The notes beneath the pieces are model-generated. The model saw nothing but the letters and a program-made list of their open reading frames with translations. It made no database searches and was not told the origin of the DNA. From NCBI GenBank assembly GCA_017478625.1, contig JAFVDF010000007.1, positions 1-59,943 on the forward strand: a DNA stretch of 59,943 nucleotides, read 5' to 3'. This document shows, piece after piece, positions 3,401-51,096 of this stretch. The DNA is from Alloprevotella sp. (GTDB lineage Bacteria; Bacteroidota; Bacteroidia; Bacteroidales; Bacteroidaceae). Position numbers and translations under genes: made by a program. Numbering within the stretch: position 1 is the first letter of the stretch; every line of letters begins with the position of its first letter.

Positions 3401-4147
3401 TGGACCGCTACTACTATTGACAAATTCTATATTTATACAGAATATCCAGACGATAATGTCGCTTACCTGACTATGACCGCCTATGTGTCAGCCTTGACTA
3501 TTACGAAGAATAGCCAAGGATGGATGGACCGCGCAGGCACTACTACGGTTGGTAAAACGTGGAGCGCGTCTGACATATTCTTGGGCAGTAGCGCTTACTT
3601 CTCCTCCGGACAATCCGCAAAGGCTAAGGGTCGCAGTGTAACGAACGGCACAGAAGAACATACCTGCATCTATTACATAACAGACTGCACGGGAGTAAAA
3701 GCCTTCGGCTTCAACACGGAGGGAGTAACCAGCACCTATCCTGCATACATCAAAGTGTATGAATGTACGAAGAATGCGGACGGAACATTATCCGTTGGCG
3801 GAAAACCGGACTCCTCCATTGATCTTCCACGGACTTTGACGATCGGCACTACCGTCGTTGCGCAAGCCCAAAGCACTACGACAAACAGCAACTTCTCGCT
3901 TTCTGTTGACGGACTAGACAAGGATAAGATATATAAAGTCGTTGTCGGTGGAGCACGCAGCCAAATCTATGAAGTAGGCTTAGAGATGCCCTTCAGTCCC
4001 ATTACTGGAGTTGATGCCATATCCGTTCCGCAAAAACAAGAACCTGACACATGGTACACCTTACAGGGTCTGCGGCTAAAAGGCGAGCCTACGCAACAAG
4101 GCCTATACATCCGCAACGGAAAAGTCGTACTTTTCATCAAACCATAA
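467..4147 (+). CDS. Secreted subtilisin-family (S8) serine protease with Ig-like repeats
   Basis: Predicted secreted endopeptidase of 1226 residues. A signal peptide covers about residues 1-23 (hydrophobic core LMLLCAIFSF, then VAQ). The catalytic triad is visible as Asp190 (VIDSGID), His243 (GSHGTHT) and Ser679 (EGTSMATP). The His-Ser distance of about 436 residues is far larger than in a minimal subtilisin, so a large extra domain is inserted in the catalytic domain. Two Ig-like modules of the kind starting ATPxxLxF follow, at about 760-855 and 860-960. The C-terminus has TLQG and GLYIRNGK, a short motif common on secreted Prevotella and Bacteroides proteins and possibly a sorting signal. 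The gene stands alone, with its own terminator. The substrate is unknown; nutrient acquisition or host-protein cleavage is inference. Confidence 0.93.
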   Translation: MRRNWILMLLCAIFSFAFKGVAQNNVSAKFSATTLQFLDERDGKAQLPKAKERKPLATSPSNTQLLAQDDEIRYSRRKIAEVADVNGTKLISAFITVKDGNFTALRNLGVEIQCEFGTMVSAAIPIDKIEAVAALENVVNIDVAEVLEPLTDQSRAKTRAYDAINNTAVAQALGINKAYTGKGIILGVIDSGIDFQHIAFKDKNGNSRIVRAYTLRNTSGQLTTHSTTSAISALTYDTQNGSHGTHTSSTAGGSSVIINGDNVTVTDDHASATYGGIAPEADLVLCGLSSLYTTAIGNAIKAICDYADEVGKPCVISLSLGSQNGPHDGSGSVGNIVKQYAGDNHIIVYASSNDAQRADDFVALGTSNGGGMHASATATSAKPFLANIQRSYSNASGNVQLPYPTIYACARTANVPLSLKFTVINTSTGAVEYSSSAYSLSASSTTNTTLSITSTTSGLGKYFYSTTSYSNQYSTSDTGRIRIQGGRDSYSNKYYFAIYCPMMISNGITQESGSDVYGSKYAFCISIYPTSTTNTTTIDAWESSYCWFGNDLTLASSASYNLALGSDDCSVSDNACYDDVISVGAYISKNSVQTYKNETLDLSSSFGEIGNHAYFSSYQTSGFGPTGKALPTICAPGATIVAAVNHYSSDYMDDENYDYGNARINTNTTYPYGNMEGTSMATPCVSGIIALWLQACKDAGKTANPDYIKEVLAATAIHDSYTSGALGDGAQTFGPNGKIDALAGIQYILGTTGGPTLSATPESLSFEGYTGQTYEESLSVKGATLEGNVTLTLDDPNGIYSIDKTSLTQAEAEAGADIKVTYAPTEAGTTNATLTISSENADDVVVSISGTAELATPTIIATPNELTFSASLEETASKSFVVTGRFLESDVNVALTDANGVFSLSTSRIHLEDIDEEGVNVTVNFLSNVEGSYTGSVRLTSSGATPVVVNLSAEATDGGKATDSFLNLKKYASIDDTEWTATTIDKFYIYTEYPDDNVAYLTMTAYVSALTITKNSQGWMDRAGTTTVGKTWSASDIFLGSSAYFSSGQSAKAKGRSVTNGTEEHTCIYYITDCTGVKAFGFNTEGVTSTYPAYIKVYECTKNADGTLSVGGKPDSSIDLPRTLTIGTTVVAQAQSTTTNSNFSLSVDGLDKDKIYKVVVGGARSQIYEVGLEMPFSPITGVDAISVPQKQEPDTWYTLQGLRLKGEPTQQGLYIRNGKVVLFIKP

Positions 4148-4210: not shown

Positions 4211-4244
4211 TTCTGTTCGTAGGGTCGCTTATGCCGTGTTTCAG

Positions 4245-4299
4245 TTCACAGTGTGAAATGCGCGTTTCACACTGTGAAATTTGAATTTCACAGTGTGAA
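4245..4299. repeat. Dispersed triple-palindrome element, copy A
   Basis: Three copies of a 13-bp palindrome are found at 4245-4257 (TTCACAGTGTGAA), 4266-4278 (TTCACACTGTGAA) and 4287-4299 (TTCACAGTGTGAA). Starts are exactly 21 bp apart, with 8-bp spacers ATGCGCGT and ATTTGAAT. Units 2 and 3 with adjoining spacer bases also form a perfect 16-bp inverted repeat. Copies B and C are at 30333-30387 and 49057-49111. It lies between the S8 protease terminator and glnN. Confidence 0.9.
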
Positions 4300-4390
4300 C
4301 TCTAAAATCAGATAGTTCTATGTTCAGAACTGTCCGTTTTTTCGTAATTTTATACTCTCCGACTGTCACAACACATAAAGGTCTCCATCT

Positions 4391-4406: not shown

Positions 4407-4471
4407 CATTTGTAGGTCCTTATAATTGTGTGCTCCCTAAGACGTTTTTCAATATTTCATACAAAAAGGTT

Positions 4472-30216: not shown

Positions 30217-30332
30217 AAAACAGCTGATTATATTAAGGTTTAAGTAATTGGTCTTATGGAATGGAAAAATCCGTTTCTGCGCGAAGATAATCAAATAATT
30301 GCGCAAGCGTAGCGCATAAGCGCCTTTTCCAG

Positions 30333-30387
30333 TTCACACTGTGAAATGTGTGTTTCACACTGTGAAATTCAAATTTCACAGTGTGAA
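30333..30387. repeat. Dispersed triple-palindrome element, copy B
   Basis: Palindromes at 30333-30345 (TTCACACTGTGAA), 30354-30366 (TTCACACTGTGAA) and 30375-30387 (TTCACAGTGTGAA), again exactly 21 bp apart, with spacers ATGTGTGT and ATTCAAAT. This copy sits between two divergent genes. Outward-facing TATCTTCG boxes (minus strand 30289-30282, plus strand 30402-30409) flank it almost symmetrically. Confidence 0.9.
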
Positions 30388-30440
30388 CTCTGAATTTGTA
30401 TTATCTTCGCTTCCAATCAGATTATTCTTTTATCATAAAG

Positions 30441-48086: not shown

Positions 48087-48962
48087 ATGCCCTTAGTCTG
48101 GTTGGCCATACTCCTACGTATAGTAAGCAATCCGATAGGTAATGTGTTTCAGAAGCAGCTCACCCACGCTGGAAGACATCACCCTCTGGTAGTAAACTTT
48201 ACGTCTTTGGCGATTTTGGCCTTGATAAGTTTTTGCACAATAGGCTGGCAAGTCGATTGGAGGCATTTGCCACCTCATTTCTGGCTTTGGGCCATATTGA
48301 CAGGCCTTTTCGGCGGTATTGGAAATGGGTTTCTTGTCCTTGCTCTGCGCGACGGAGAACTTTCCATACTTGGACCCATCAACAGCTACAAGAGCATAGT
48401 GGGCCTCATCACTGGAGTTTTCCTGCTGGGGGAGCTTCCCACACTGGCAGGCCTGTGTGGCATAGCCCTTATAATCGGAGGTAGTTATTTCGTATTTGAA
48501 ACTACCGACGAAGGCTTTACCTGGGCCCTTTTACGCAACAGATCCATCCGTTACCGCATCTGGGCCCTGATTCTGACTGCCACGGAGGCCGTCTTCATCA
48601 AGAAAGTCGTCCTGCTGAGTGACGTGCCTACCAGCCTGGTAGTCTGGTGTGGCTTTGGAGCCGTCTTTGCCTTTGCAACGCTTATCGTGTTGCGCATACC
48701 CATAAGGAGAGACTTCTGCTCCACTACCCTTCCTGATGCCGGGAGGTATGTATGGCTTGTCCTCTGCCTGGCCATCACGGCCCTCACTACCAACTACACC
48801 TTCCGCTATATGCAAGTAGGCTATGCACTTGCACTCTTCCAACTTTCCATATTGGTAAGCATACTTTTCGGCTACAGATTTTTCCAGGAGCAACATATCG
48901 TCCAAAAACTTCTCGGAGCGGTCATTATGATACTCGGCTCCGTGCTCATCCTGCTCTACTGA
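48087..48962 (+). CDS. DMT-superfamily (EamA-like) transporter
   Basis: A 291-residue inner-membrane protein with about ten hydrophobic helices in two repeats, as in the drug/metabolite transporter superfamily. Repeat 1 covers about 3-140 (GLFGGIGNGFLVLALRDGEL, LGELPTLAGLCGIALIIGGS) and repeat 2 about 155-290 (NYTFRYMQVGYALALFQLS, LLGAVIMILGSVLILLY). The substrate is unknown; exporters of amino acids or metabolites are typical. It stands alone, between the glnS terminator and a triple-palindrome element. Confidence 0.87.
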   Translation: MPLVWLAILLRIVSNPIGNVFQKQLTHAGRHHPLVVNFTSLAILALISFCTIGWQVDWRHLPPHFWLWAILTGLFGGIGNGFLVLALRDGELSILGPINSYKSIVGLITGVFLLGELPTLAGLCGIALIIGGSYFVFETTDEGFTWALLRNRSIRYRIWALILTATEAVFIKKVVLLSDVPTSLVVWCGFGAVFAFATLIVLRIPIRRDFCSTTLPDAGRYVWLVLCLAITALTTNYTFRYMQVGYALALFQLSILVSILFGYRFFQEQHIVQKLLGAVIMILGSVLILLY

Positions 48963-49056
48963 AACCGCCTTACAGAAGAGTGCCGTTGCATCGTTTCCGC
49001 CTCCAATCTGCGAATCACATACGGCTATTTCCCCAGAACCTTATACCCTTTTATAT

Positions 49057-49111
49057 TTCACACTGTGAACTGCGTGTTTCACACTGTGAAATATGAATTT
49101 CACAGTGTGAA
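49057..49111. repeat. Dispersed triple-palindrome element, copy C
   Basis: Palindromes at 49057-49069 (TTCACACTGTGAA), 49078-49090 (TTCACACTGTGAA) and 49099-49111 (TTCACAGTGTGAA), 21 bp apart, spacers CTGCGTGT and ATATGAAT. Units 2 and 3 form a 15-bp stem with loop ATGA. It lies in the 448-base gene-free stretch 48963-49410 between the DMT transporter and the acyl-CoA ligase, which otherwise holds only the ligase promoter. Confidence 0.9.
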
Positions 49112-49295
49112 ATGAAATCTTTCCCTATACCATAGAAAGATTCCTCCCTCGCTTTTTCCCAAAGGCTTAACGGACAGCAGTTTCGGAAAGAGTTCTATCC
49201 ACAATCCCCCGACATACCTGTTGCGCGGATTACACTTTGAATAATCCGCAGAGGAGAACCTCTCTCTGGGCCTGCACATTTTTAGGGGTAAAACT

Positions 49296-49410: not shown

Positions 49411-51096
49411 ATGGAAAACTACGTTGCGGAATATACCGACTTTATTGAAGTTATTGAAAATACCATTAAGAAGCATTGGAACCTAGACTCTTTGACCAAC
49501 TATCAGGGTATTACGCTTCAATACCATGATGTAGCAAGAAAAATAGAGAAACTTCACATCCTGTTCGAGAATGCCGGTGTACAGAAAGGCGATAAGATTG
49601 CGCTCTGCGGACGCAACTGCGCTGAATGGGCATCGGCTTTTTTGGCGATACTTACCTACGGGGCAATCGCCGTGCCTATACTACACGAGTTCAAAGCCCC
49701 CCAGGTCCACAATCTGGTAAACCACTCCGACTCCAAACTGCTTTTCGTCGGCGATGTGGTATGGGAACAGCTCAACGCAGACGAGATGTTGAACCTTGAG
49801 GGTATCATTGCCATCAACGACTACTCCCTGCTCGTGTCCCGCTCCCAGAAGCTGACCGATGCACGCGAGACGCTGAACAAAATGTTTGGCGAGAAATATC
49901 CCAAGTTCTTCCGCCCCGAACATGTCAGCTATGCGCGCGCCACAGACCCCGACCAACTGGCTATACTCAATTATACCAGTGGCACCACCAGTAATTCAAA
50001 AGGTGTGCTGATACCCTACCGTGCACTATGGTCTAATATGGATTTCGCCAGAGGCGTTATGTCGCATTGCATTAAAGAGGGCGCACGTGTCATCAGCATA
50101 CTCCCCATGGCCCACATGTACGGTATGGCGTTCGAGTTCTTCTACGAATTTATCAGTGGAGCCCATATCTACTACCTCACCCGCCTGCCGTCCCCACGTA
50201 TCATCTTCCAAGCCTTTGCCGAGATTAAGCCCTCGCTCATCATCAGCGTGCCACTCATCATTGAGAAGATTATACGCAAGTCTGTCCTGCCCAAATTGCA
50301 GACTCCCAGTATGAAAGTGCTGCTTCGTCTGCCCTACATCAGCGACAAGATAGGCGAACGCATTCGTCAGCAACTCTATCAGGCATTTGGCGGTAACTTC
50401 TATGAAATCATCATAGGTGGCGCAGCGTTCAACAGCGAGATAGAAGAACTCCTCCACCGCATAGGCTTCAATTACACCGTCGGATATGGCGCTACCGAGT
50501 GCGCACCCATCATGGCCTATGCCGACTGGAAAGATTTGCCCCTCGGGTCCTGTGGACGCAATGTTCCCCACATGGAAATGCGTATAGACAGCCCTGACCC
50601 AGAGCACATCGTGGGCGAAATTCTGGTGCGCGGTGCCAACGTGATGCTGGGATACTACAAGAACCCCGAAGCCACTGCTGCTTCCATTGACAAAGACGGA
50701 TGGTTCCATACGGGAGACCTCGGCGTAATTGATGCCAACGGCTTCCTCTATATTCGCGGGCGCAGTAAGAATATGCTCTTAGGCTCCTCCGGCCAGAATA
50801 TCTATCCAGAGGAGATAGAAGACAAACTGTGCACCCTACCTTATGTCAGCGAGTGCCTTGTCATTCAGAAAGGCGACAAACTTTATGGTCTGGTGTACCC
50901 AGATTACGAAGAAGCAGAGAAAGACGGTATGGACGAGAATATGATTGTTTCGCAAATGGAACAGAATCGGAAAGACCTCAACCAGCTTGTAAACAATTAC
51001 GAACAACTCAGTGGAATAAAAGTGCTGAAGGAAGAATTTGAAAAGACTCCCAAAAAGAGCATCAAACGCTATCTCTACGACGACTACGAGATCTAA
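49411..51096 (+). CDS. AMP-forming acyl-CoA ligase (long-chain fatty acid type)
   Basis: A 561-residue adenylate-forming enzyme that activates a carboxylic acid with ATP and CoA. The P-loop is YTSGTTSNSKG (about 190-200). Further motifs are YGATECAP, GWFHTGDLG with the AMP-ribose Asp, and the hinge IRGRSKNML. The C-terminal lid Lys is probably in KTPKKSIKRYLYD. It resembles FadD-like long-chain fatty-acid ligases of Bacteroidales; the chain length cannot be read. It ends before its own terminator and has a clear promoter, so it is a single-gene unit. Confidence 0.92.
   Translation: MENYVAEYTDFIEVIENTIKKHWNLDSLTNYQGITLQYHDVARKIEKLHILFENAGVQKGDKIALCGRNCAEWASAFLAILTYGAIAVPILHEFKAPQVHNLVNHSDSKLLFVGDVVWEQLNADEMLNLEGIIAINDYSLLVSRSQKLTDARETLNKMFGEKYPKFFRPEHVSYARATDPDQLAILNYTSGTTSNSKGVLIPYRALWSNMDFARGVMSHCIKEGARVISILPMAHMYGMAFEFFYEFISGAHIYYLTRLPSPRIIFQAFAEIKPSLIISVPLIIEKIIRKSVLPKLQTPSMKVLLRLPYISDKIGERIRQQLYQAFGGNFYEIIIGGAAFNSEIEELLHRIGFNYTVGYGATECAPIMAYADWKDLPLGSCGRNVPHMEMRIDSPDPEHIVGEILVRGANVMLGYYKNPEATAASIDKDGWFHTGDLGVIDANGFLYIRGRSKNMLLGSSGQNIYPEEIEDKLCTLPYVSECLVIQKGDKLYGLVYPDYEEAEKDGMDENMIVSQMEQNRKDLNQLVNNYEQLSGIKVLKEEFEKTPKKSIKRYLYDDYEI

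Follow-up and report, generated by a model that had tools for sequence, protein, structure and literature searches.

Dispersed Arrays of Palindromes in a 21-bp Register in Alloprevotella, with Different Motifs at Orthologous Sites of Two Related Genomes

Results

Three Palindromic Triples in the Window

The window analysed here, a stretch of 59,943 nt of the Alloprevotella sp. contig JAFVDF010000007.1 (assembly GCA_017478625.1), contains three copies of an element built from the 13-bp palindrome TTCACASTGTGAA. The palindrome occurs three times in each copy, and the starts of its units lie 21 bp apart. The original prediction, made by a model from the letters of the window, had placed nine such 13-mers, and all of them were found at their coordinates with 0 mismatches. 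The 21-bp distance was confirmed in each of the three copies, as was their intergenic location, for which a simple open reading frame (ORF) caller was used. The suspicion that the pattern did not arise by chance was also borne out: with 2 mismatches allowed, the window gave only the same nine matches, whereas 100 dinucleotide shuffles gave a mean of 1.34 and a maximum of 4.

The first core triple (4245..4299) consists of TTCACAGTGTGAA at 4245-4257, TTCACACTGTGAA at 4266-4278 and again TTCACAGTGTGAA at 4287-4299; like all the units described here, it is recorded without a strand. Its neighbours, both on the + strand, are a gene of the subtilase family that ends at 4147 and, starting at 4430, the gene of glutamine synthetase III. 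The glutamine synthetase matches the solved structure 3o6x (E 3.6e-280), which we take to be that of a Bacteroides enzyme; taken with the gene content, this match suggests the order Bacteroidales. The second core triple (30333..30387, units at 30333-30345, 30354-30366 and 30375-30387) is located between divergent genes, one coding for a protein with an ODP-family metallo-beta-lactamase fold and flavodoxin (- strand) and the other for a TfoX N-terminal domain protein (+ strand). The third (49057..49111, units at 49057-49069, 49078-49090 and 49099-49111) is found between an EamA transporter gene ending at 48962 (+) and an AMP-binding enzyme gene starting at 49411 (+). The spacer pairs present in the window are ATGCGCGT/ATTTGAAT, ATGTGTGT/ATTCAAAT and CTGCGTGT/ATATGAAT.

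Copies across the Genome Bin

The genome bin of the window (G000) comprises 1,256,965 bases in 18 contigs and is 58.9% complete. When up to 3 mismatches were allowed and the centre base was left free, 40 triples were found in it, of which 23 matched exactly, 14 had one mismatch, 2 had two and 1 had three, while the same pattern read backwards gave 0 matches. One double (C10:190320) and one single (C5:119438) were present in addition. There are 107 exact TTCACANTGTGAA 13-mers in G000 and, among the matches listed (about half), none lies outside the triples, the double and the single. The half-sites of the triples are uniform, 220 of 240 being exactly TTCACA, and the centre base of the 120 units is G in 62, C in 55, A in 2 and T in 1. 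Meanwhile, the 8-bp spacers are variable (41 distinct among 80). Palindromes of 13 bp with spacers of 8 bp bear no resemblance to CRISPR or other spacer arrays, in which identical repeats and unique spacers adjoin cas genes. Two degenerate copies (L016 and L029) were excluded from the profiles and from the phase and half-site counts.

With 40 triples in G000 and sites in common with its nearest relative, described below, the element is neither limited to three copies nor without conservation. The idea of a dispersed multi-copy element thus stood, but its definition as the literal TTCACASTGTGAA triple proved narrow: at up to 2 mismatches this triple was found in 0 of 40 relatives, 24 of them congeneric, a set that lies apart from the nearest relative. 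It should be noted that the bins are incomplete and of metagenome type, that the gene caller is simple and that some of the stretches compared were chosen with bias. The core facts, namely the 40 triples, their register and the other motif at orthologous sites, are untouched by these doubts.

According to our own simple ORF caller, all 42 loci of G000 are intergenic, 13 of them lying between convergent, 14 between divergent and 15 between tandem genes. The flanking genes look like ordinary housekeeping genes (gyrA, ileS, leuS, guaA, ruvA, clpB and rpsP among them), in which no theme could be seen by eye; few were checked against Pfam. The gene of an HU-HIG family DNA-binding protein (PF18291, L041:3099-3785) directly adjoins one triple on contig C14. 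With such orientations and no gene theme, a role of the element as promoter, terminator or regulon was rejected.

A related explanation is that the copies are dispersed operators or insulators, at which a global repressor bound as phased dimers would block read-through or silence promoters at the borders of transcription units. Triple operators at a spacing of about two turns are familiar from repressors, and the stoperators of mycobacteriophages may be compared with them. The location of all 42 copies between called genes agrees with this explanation, and in the nearest relative the array before guaA stops, as judged by eye, just upstream of a promoter-like stretch. However, no promoter is expected between the convergent genes at 13 of the 42 copies, the flanking genes lack a theme, and the even spacing of the arrays in the nearest relative is unexpected for a regulon. 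We consider dispersed operators unlikely, if by no means negligible.

The 21-bp Lattice around the Triples

The triples of G000 form the middle of a longer 21-bp lattice. In the 80 folded arms of the 40 triples, the flanks carry a weaker dyad, roughly A-TANSATAATGCCNT, and the information per 21-bp unit falls outward from 10.2 through 4.4, 3.5, 1.9, 1.3, 0.6, 0.56 and 0.25 to 0.13 bits. The decay is symmetric on both sides, and fixed ends were not seen in the 80-arm profile. Flank matches to a second motif, TTGCATWATGCAA (at least 9/13), were in the register of the core in 50 of 89 cases, against about 4 expected per phase. Similarly, 23 of the 40 elements have an in-register TTGCATWATGCAA-like unit among the six nearest positions, compared with 0 to 3 for 20 shifted registers. 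The S-centred triples and the TTGCATWATGCAA arrays, called class B below, are two classes with a common 21-bp register.

In the window, core triple 1 has weak in-register units on its left (4224..4236, GTCGCTTATGCCG) and right (4308..4320, TCAGATAGTTCTA), each agreeing with TTGCATWATGCAA at 7/13 positions. The left one is weak singly, the outer-unit profile having been built on the 80 arms genome-wide. The outer units of core triple 2 include the fourth one leftward (30249..30261, TGGTCTTATGGAA, 9/13), which falls at the start of the called gene upstream, a weak one on the left (30312..30324, GCGCATAAGCGCC, 6/13) and one on the right (30396..30408, TTGTATTATCTTC, 8/13). For core triple 3, they are the second one leftward (49015..49027, TCACATACGGCTA, 8/13) and one on the right (49120..49132, TTTCCCTATACCA, 8/13).

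A general 21-bp periodicity of intergenes was rejected as the source of the lattice, since the core-masked intergenes of the window gave 0.272 at lag 21 and coding DNA gave 0.274. Recent tandem duplication was rejected as well, because spacers are no more alike within arrays than between them (0.525 vs 0.623 in G000). For the same reason, tandem duplication or the copying of whole elements explains the uniform half-sites poorly.

A Different Motif at Orthologous Sites in the Nearest Relative

Among the 26 other genomes with a GuaA match, the genome bin G042 (77% complete) is the closest, its GuaA being 84% identical. The TTCACA triple (score of at least 33/39) was not found in the 0.52 Mb of G042 searched. 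Meanwhile, a search of this genome gave 14 triples of TTCAAGSCTTGAA, as well as the second class, TTGCATWATGCAA, likewise at 21 bp. The class B pattern was found in 2 of 58 genomes of the genus, namely in G042 (58 forward and 60 reverse matches) and in G000 (8 forward and 6 reverse). The 352-kb contig C1 of G042, read as a whole, carries 32 class B arrays (shuffle 0), the one at 183574 being doubtful. Contig C15 of G000 has 20 arrays at threshold (shuffle 0), of which 6 contain a TTCACA triple, 1 is mixed and 13 are of class B. At C15:146677 (L101, L205), class B and TTCACA units share one 21-bp register in a mixed array that is perhaps transitional.

For 10 of the 14 TTCAAG-type triples of G042, the orthologous intergene of G000 holds a TTCACA triple; as the G000 stretches were mostly selected around triples, this is not an unbiased rate. 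Two of the remaining four are identical and lead to a place near C15:6546 with no array within 900 bp, and the other two have no homologue in the compared stretches. The same TTCAAG triple and neighbour gene were observed on two contigs of G042 (L288 at C1:79330 and L289 at C8:3556), which reflects either a duplication or an assembly artefact. We do not think that the ten orthologous matches arose by coincidence. Upstream of tetR, for example, a triple is located at -169 in both species, with TTCACASTGTGAA in G000 and TTCAAGSCTTGAA in G042, the same 21-bp spacing and similar spacers. The intergene at guaA holds a TTCACA triple in G000 and a run of 21-bp units AAAATTGCATWATGCAATTTT in G042.

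The comparison was less biased in the opposite direction. Five G000 triples have flanking genes that are adjacent on contig C1 of G042, and four of these five intergenes hold a class B array. Five further class B matches (L016 with one flank only, L034, L040, L042 and L047) come from stretches chosen for their arrays. The half-sites of the G042 triples are looser than those of G000, with 37 TTCAAG, 22 TCCAAG and 14 TTCAGG among 78 (13 elements, L289 being excluded as identical to L288), and spacer likeness is 0.692 within and 0.767 between arrays. We infer that the uniform half-sites would be well explained by selection from a protein whose specificity has changed.

These data also bear on the explanation that the arrays are selfish or neutral repeats, that is, miniature inverted-repeat transposable elements (MITEs), repetitive extragenic palindromic (REP)-like elements or minisatellites spread and homogenised by their own machinery. 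The arrays are indeed intergenic, present in many copies and species-specific in sequence. REP sequences and bacterial interspersed mosaic elements (BIMEs) are likewise short intergenic palindromes with many copies, and we know of no case in which they show an exact 21-bp three-unit register, even spacing or rewriting at orthologous places. The nearest described repeat in this order is BrickBuilt of Porphyromonas gingivalis, a 23-nt intergenic minisatellite within a MITE; the portion of its description drawn on here gives 19 copies in one chromosome, with 23-nt direct repeats, a leader, a tail and terminal inverted repeats (PMC4596501). The string "palindrom" is absent from the main text of that source (PMC4596501). 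The arrays resemble BrickBuilt, as described there, in being intergenic tandem short repeats and differ from it in unit length, structure and ends (PMC4596501). A self-spreading repeat would not be expected to occupy common positions with different motifs in two species, nor to hold its units strictly in register when the spacers have diverged and show no greater likeness within an array than between arrays. Terminal inverted repeats, a leader or tail and fixed ends were not seen in the 80-arm profile, and the spacing is over-regular. A selfish or neutral origin is therefore improbable in our judgement.

Spacing and Placement along the Chromosome

Contig C1 of G042 carries 35 arrays (32 of class B and three TTCAAG triples), which follow one another at 9.6 kb on average, with a coefficient of variation (CV) of 0.482. 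Random placement among the 99 gaps of at least 100 bp gave a mean CV of 0.919 and a minimum of 0.491, and 0 of 20,000 draws were as low as the observed value. Only one spacing was below 4 kb, against 10.6 expected. Class B alone gave a CV of 0.492 against a random value of 0.998 (0 of 10,000 draws as low), and each of the three TTCAAG triples is separated from the closest class B array by 5.7 to 8.1 kb. Among the 32 G042 arrays, 6 are between convergent, 8 between divergent and 18 between tandem genes, compared with 12, 24 and 42 of the 78 gaps of at least 150 bp. In G000, 9 of the 11 inter-triple spacings on contig C14 are 7.9 to 12.0 kb, and the 20 arrays on C15 have a similar look, with a raw CV of 0.57.

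The triples are enriched in one collinear region, as 12 of 42 are located on C14 of G000 (P 0.004) and 10 of 14 on C4 of G042 (P 0.00015), both P values being binomial and the region having been picked post hoc. The G+C skew fades in this region, which is perhaps the terminus side, and the sign change of the skew near C15:340000 is perhaps the origin.

The even spacing, the independence of orientation and the species specificity could also belong to a self-DNA tag for uptake, repair or defence, placed about once per 10 kb so that each fragment is labelled. The TfoX N-terminal domain gene adjoining the second element of the window gives a weak hint of this. However, the tags known to us from uptake systems or of the Chi type are short, occur singly and lie more densely, and no data call for the processing of incoming DNA, which makes a tag of this kind quite improbable.

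Arrays in Other Members of the Genus

When 13 further congeners (0.79 Mb) were scanned de novo by autocorrelation, lag 21 gave 16 matches and lag 22 gave 12; the other lags from 13 to 32 gave 0 to 3 each, except for 8 at lag 18, of which 4 were in G003. Among these 28 lag-21/22 matches, 24 were intergenic and 4 lay in called genes, two of them long, and by eye a few others resemble repeats in coding DNA. A further congener sample (0.32 Mb around four kinds of genes), counted without a coding filter, gave 16 matches at lag 21, 3 at lag 22 and 0 or 1 elsewhere.

At a spacing of 22 bp, the motif of the arrays is TAACCCTAGGGTTA-like in G006 and TATCAAGCGCTTGATA in G007; at 21 bp, it is AAACCAAGCTTGGTTT-like in G059 and of the CTACGTGGGA type in G004. 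The genome G073 (99% complete) has GTTTG-N7-CAAAC at 21 bp, with 178 forward windows containing three such units, together with a TCGTGAG-type motif at 22 bp. These two classes are unrelated and alternate along the chromosome in an interleaved fashion (L222:10936, L223:11908 and 18192 against L222:14690, L223:3628 and L197:15499). When 28 congener arrays were picked by hand, 26 were intergenic and 2 lay in weakly scored short frames; matches that looked like low-complexity coding DNA, such as L180:2600, L185:13673, L191:18254 and L236:11558, were skipped in the picking. Dyad symmetry was evaluated in 24 arrays, and the column-shuffle fraction was at most 0.03 in 17 of them and 0.06-0.07 in 2.

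An array of 21 or 22 bp with another sequence was seen within 700 bp upstream of tetR at 4 of 28 other loci, namely L270 (G067), L278 (G071), L280 (G052) and L286 (G049), which reflects either chance or partial positional conservation. In G003, long runs of 9-bp repeats of a differing type, GTGTTCACA/TGTGAACAC, were observed at L181:4188 and 4813. Beyond the genus, nothing comparable was found at lag 21 or 22 in a small contig-end sample of 15 order-level relatives (about 0.22 Mb), where the lag-21 matches were three stretches of N (L251, L255 and L257) and the low-complexity L249. One of these relatives, G026, has a short 23-bp phased repeat of the TTTGCACAA type near the start of a contig (L256:162).

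Candidate Binding Proteins

The ParB_N domain, a search for which should catch Noc as well, was found 0 times in G000 and G042. As these bins are only 59% and 77% complete, a missing ParB or other binder is weak evidence. At least one ParB_N protein is present in 54 of the 58 genus genomes, mostly exactly one, and the array-bearing G073, G006, G007 and G059 have one each. A ParB/Noc paralogue was rejected as the binder, since a second, diverged copy was not found in these four genomes. The test for parS was also negative: GTTTCACGTGAAAC, presumably the parS consensus, matches G000 once at up to 1 mismatch, at C15:319005, away from the triples. This parS-like sequence, GTTTCACGTGGAAC, lies between apt-like and gidA-like genes near the sign change of the G+C skew.

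The tetR gene adjoining the C14 array is present in 52 of 58 genomes. A Fis-type helix-turn-helix (HTH) above the cut-off was found in 55 of the 58, with one in G000 and none in G042. A Fis-type binder was rejected, because this HTH is general in the genus and the class B motif occurs in 2 of 58 genomes. Orthologues of G000 and G042 were also screened for a locally diverged recognition helix, and no candidate was found among the 175 matched of 608 called G000 proteins (best 45 of 54).

Discussion

A Possible Role in Chromosome Organisation

With a spacing of two turns, the dyads all come to lie on the same face of the helix. The strong central three, flanked by fading outer dyads, fit a nucleation by three dimers followed by cooperative extension, and the independence of gene orientation together with the even spacing points to a chromosome-scale role. 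We propose, giving it about an even chance on these features of the DNA, that the arrays are sites at which dimeric DNA-binding proteins nucleate, proteins whose specificity changes fast and which act on chromosome organisation. A homodimeric protein, probably with an HTH, would bind each dyad, and three dimers on one face would nucleate a nucleoprotein lattice, which the weaker outer dyads would allow to extend cooperatively. The recognition surface would have changed between species, with selection rewriting the sites in step. Once bound, the arrays would anchor the chromosome at regular intervals for looping, bridging or tethering, and would not serve to control individual genes.

The original prediction of a phased multi-dimer site is well supported by the one-face dyads, the centre-weighted lattice, the orientation independence, the even spacing on one G042 contig and the concerted change of motif. 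Its suggestion of a nucleoid, partition or multi-site regulator named the right class of idea, though a binder was not found among the candidates examined.

Several observations weigh against a role of the arrays in chromosome organisation. Neither ParB, TetR and Fis-type HTH proteins nor the diverged-helix screen yielded a binder: the genus ParB is single-copy in most genomes, its HTH is near-identical in 9 aligned genus sequences, and the TetR neighbour was rejected because its recognition helix, GRRTLYTYF, is identical in 30 of the 30 loci returned. The formal test of even spacing was confined to a single G042 contig. Of the five informative sites in that genome, one (L025) is without an array at threshold. 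Across the genus, array positions are for the most part not conserved, as 24 of the 28 other tetR loci have no array within 700 bp upstream, one of them being represented by only 395 bp. Among the arrays of other species, 5 of 24 lack dyad symmetry (column-shuffle fraction above 0.3). No arrays were found in the sampled part of G057 and none convincing in those of G003, G048 and G016, while those of G056 were weak. In addition, species differ in repeat phase (21, 22 and possibly also 20 and 24), and for the genus as a whole "two helical turns" is an approximation.

A broader reading, which is tentative and rather doubtful, is that of a genus-wide system for addressing the chromosome. Each species would have its own palindrome arrays about every 10 kb, often in two classes, and during divergence these would be rewritten along with the surface by which a dedicated protein recognises them. 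Chromosome handling would thereby become species-specific, with a possible barrier between species or to foreign DNA.

Comparison with Known Site Systems

SlmA and MatP/matS are the nearest functional analogues (PMC3116907). The sites of MatP (matS), SlmA and Noc are likewise dispersed, sequence-specific and largely independent of gene regulation and orientation. Their non-random chromosomal distribution also has a counterpart in the even spacing on C1 of G042 and in the triple-rich collinear region. The matS, SlmA and Noc sites are, however, single and, as far as we know, not phased arrays. To our knowledge, sites that organise chromosomes are conserved in sequence across wide taxonomic ranges. 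The arrays described here conserve their position and geometry, while at ten sites two neighbouring species differ in the recognised sequence. In the part of the SlmA account drawn on here, the protein recognises a 12-bp palindrome with 50 sites in E. coli K-12 that are excluded from Ter; in other E. coli, Salmonella and Klebsiella the putative SlmA sites obey this rule too, the sequence thus being kept across genera (PMC3116907). Unlike what that part reports for SlmA and matS, the arrays lie evenly at about 10 kb, fall into two classes with a common register and show a concerted change of motif at orthologous sites (PMC3116907).

The arrays also resemble the KorB operator and parS, one in being an S-centred 13-bp palindrome and the other in the TTCAC half-site. 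The KorB operator, TTTAGCSGCTAAA, is such a palindrome, parS has a half-site resembling TTCAC but is not known to be arrayed at 21 bp, and ParB nucleates at its site and then spreads. Specificity switching is reportedly known in the ParB/Noc family. A difference from ParB/parS is that ParB was not found in G000 or G042, which carry triples. The centromere sopC of the F plasmid consists of tandem palindromic sites in a fixed phase, with 43-bp units at one plasmid locus. The arrays share its tandem phased palindromes and differ in occupying tens of chromosomal sites.

We regard the site system as categorically new, as arrays that are conserved in position, locked in register, evenly spaced and private to a species in their motifs match no family known to us. 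Should a MatP- or Noc-like protein prove to be the binder, the system would join that known kind. If a protein is behind the arrays, they represent a natural experiment in the co-change of a protein and dozens of its sites, and the role of regularly spaced loop or domain anchors in bacteria becomes directly testable. The arrays themselves are ready-made baits for a DNA-binding protein.

Matches outside the Order

The claim that this is not a described element is in line with the open-access literature searched (subscription papers being outside its coverage), in which no title or opening of an abstract among those listed described such arrays and neither 13-mer occurred. Scans of viral contigs for exact matches gave 0 TTCACA doublets and 0 TTGCAT doublets, and a phage origin was rejected.

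In a collection of 84,980 genomes, from which the window's own records were possibly excluded, only two exact TTCACA doublets were found, both in one Elusimicrobia assembly (JAFGLF01). One of them has a degenerate third unit in the 21-bp register (L012:2728-2782) and lies directly 3' of a gene for an NtrC-type response regulator with a Fis-type C-terminal helix, named so by eye. This raises the possibility that the arrays are upstream activating sites of an NtrC-type sigma-54 enhancer-binding protein. Yet the Fis-type HTH is general in the genus (55/58), as already mentioned, and the class B motif is restricted to 2 of 58 genomes; moreover, enhancers make little sense at the convergent gene ends where 13 of 42 arrays are located. 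An origin of the arrays as sigma-54 enhancers is thus very improbable, and the Elusimicrobia doublets are probably convergent enhancer sites of an NtrC-type regulator. The second TTCACA-N-TGTGAA doublet of this assembly is located at L011:1168-1201.
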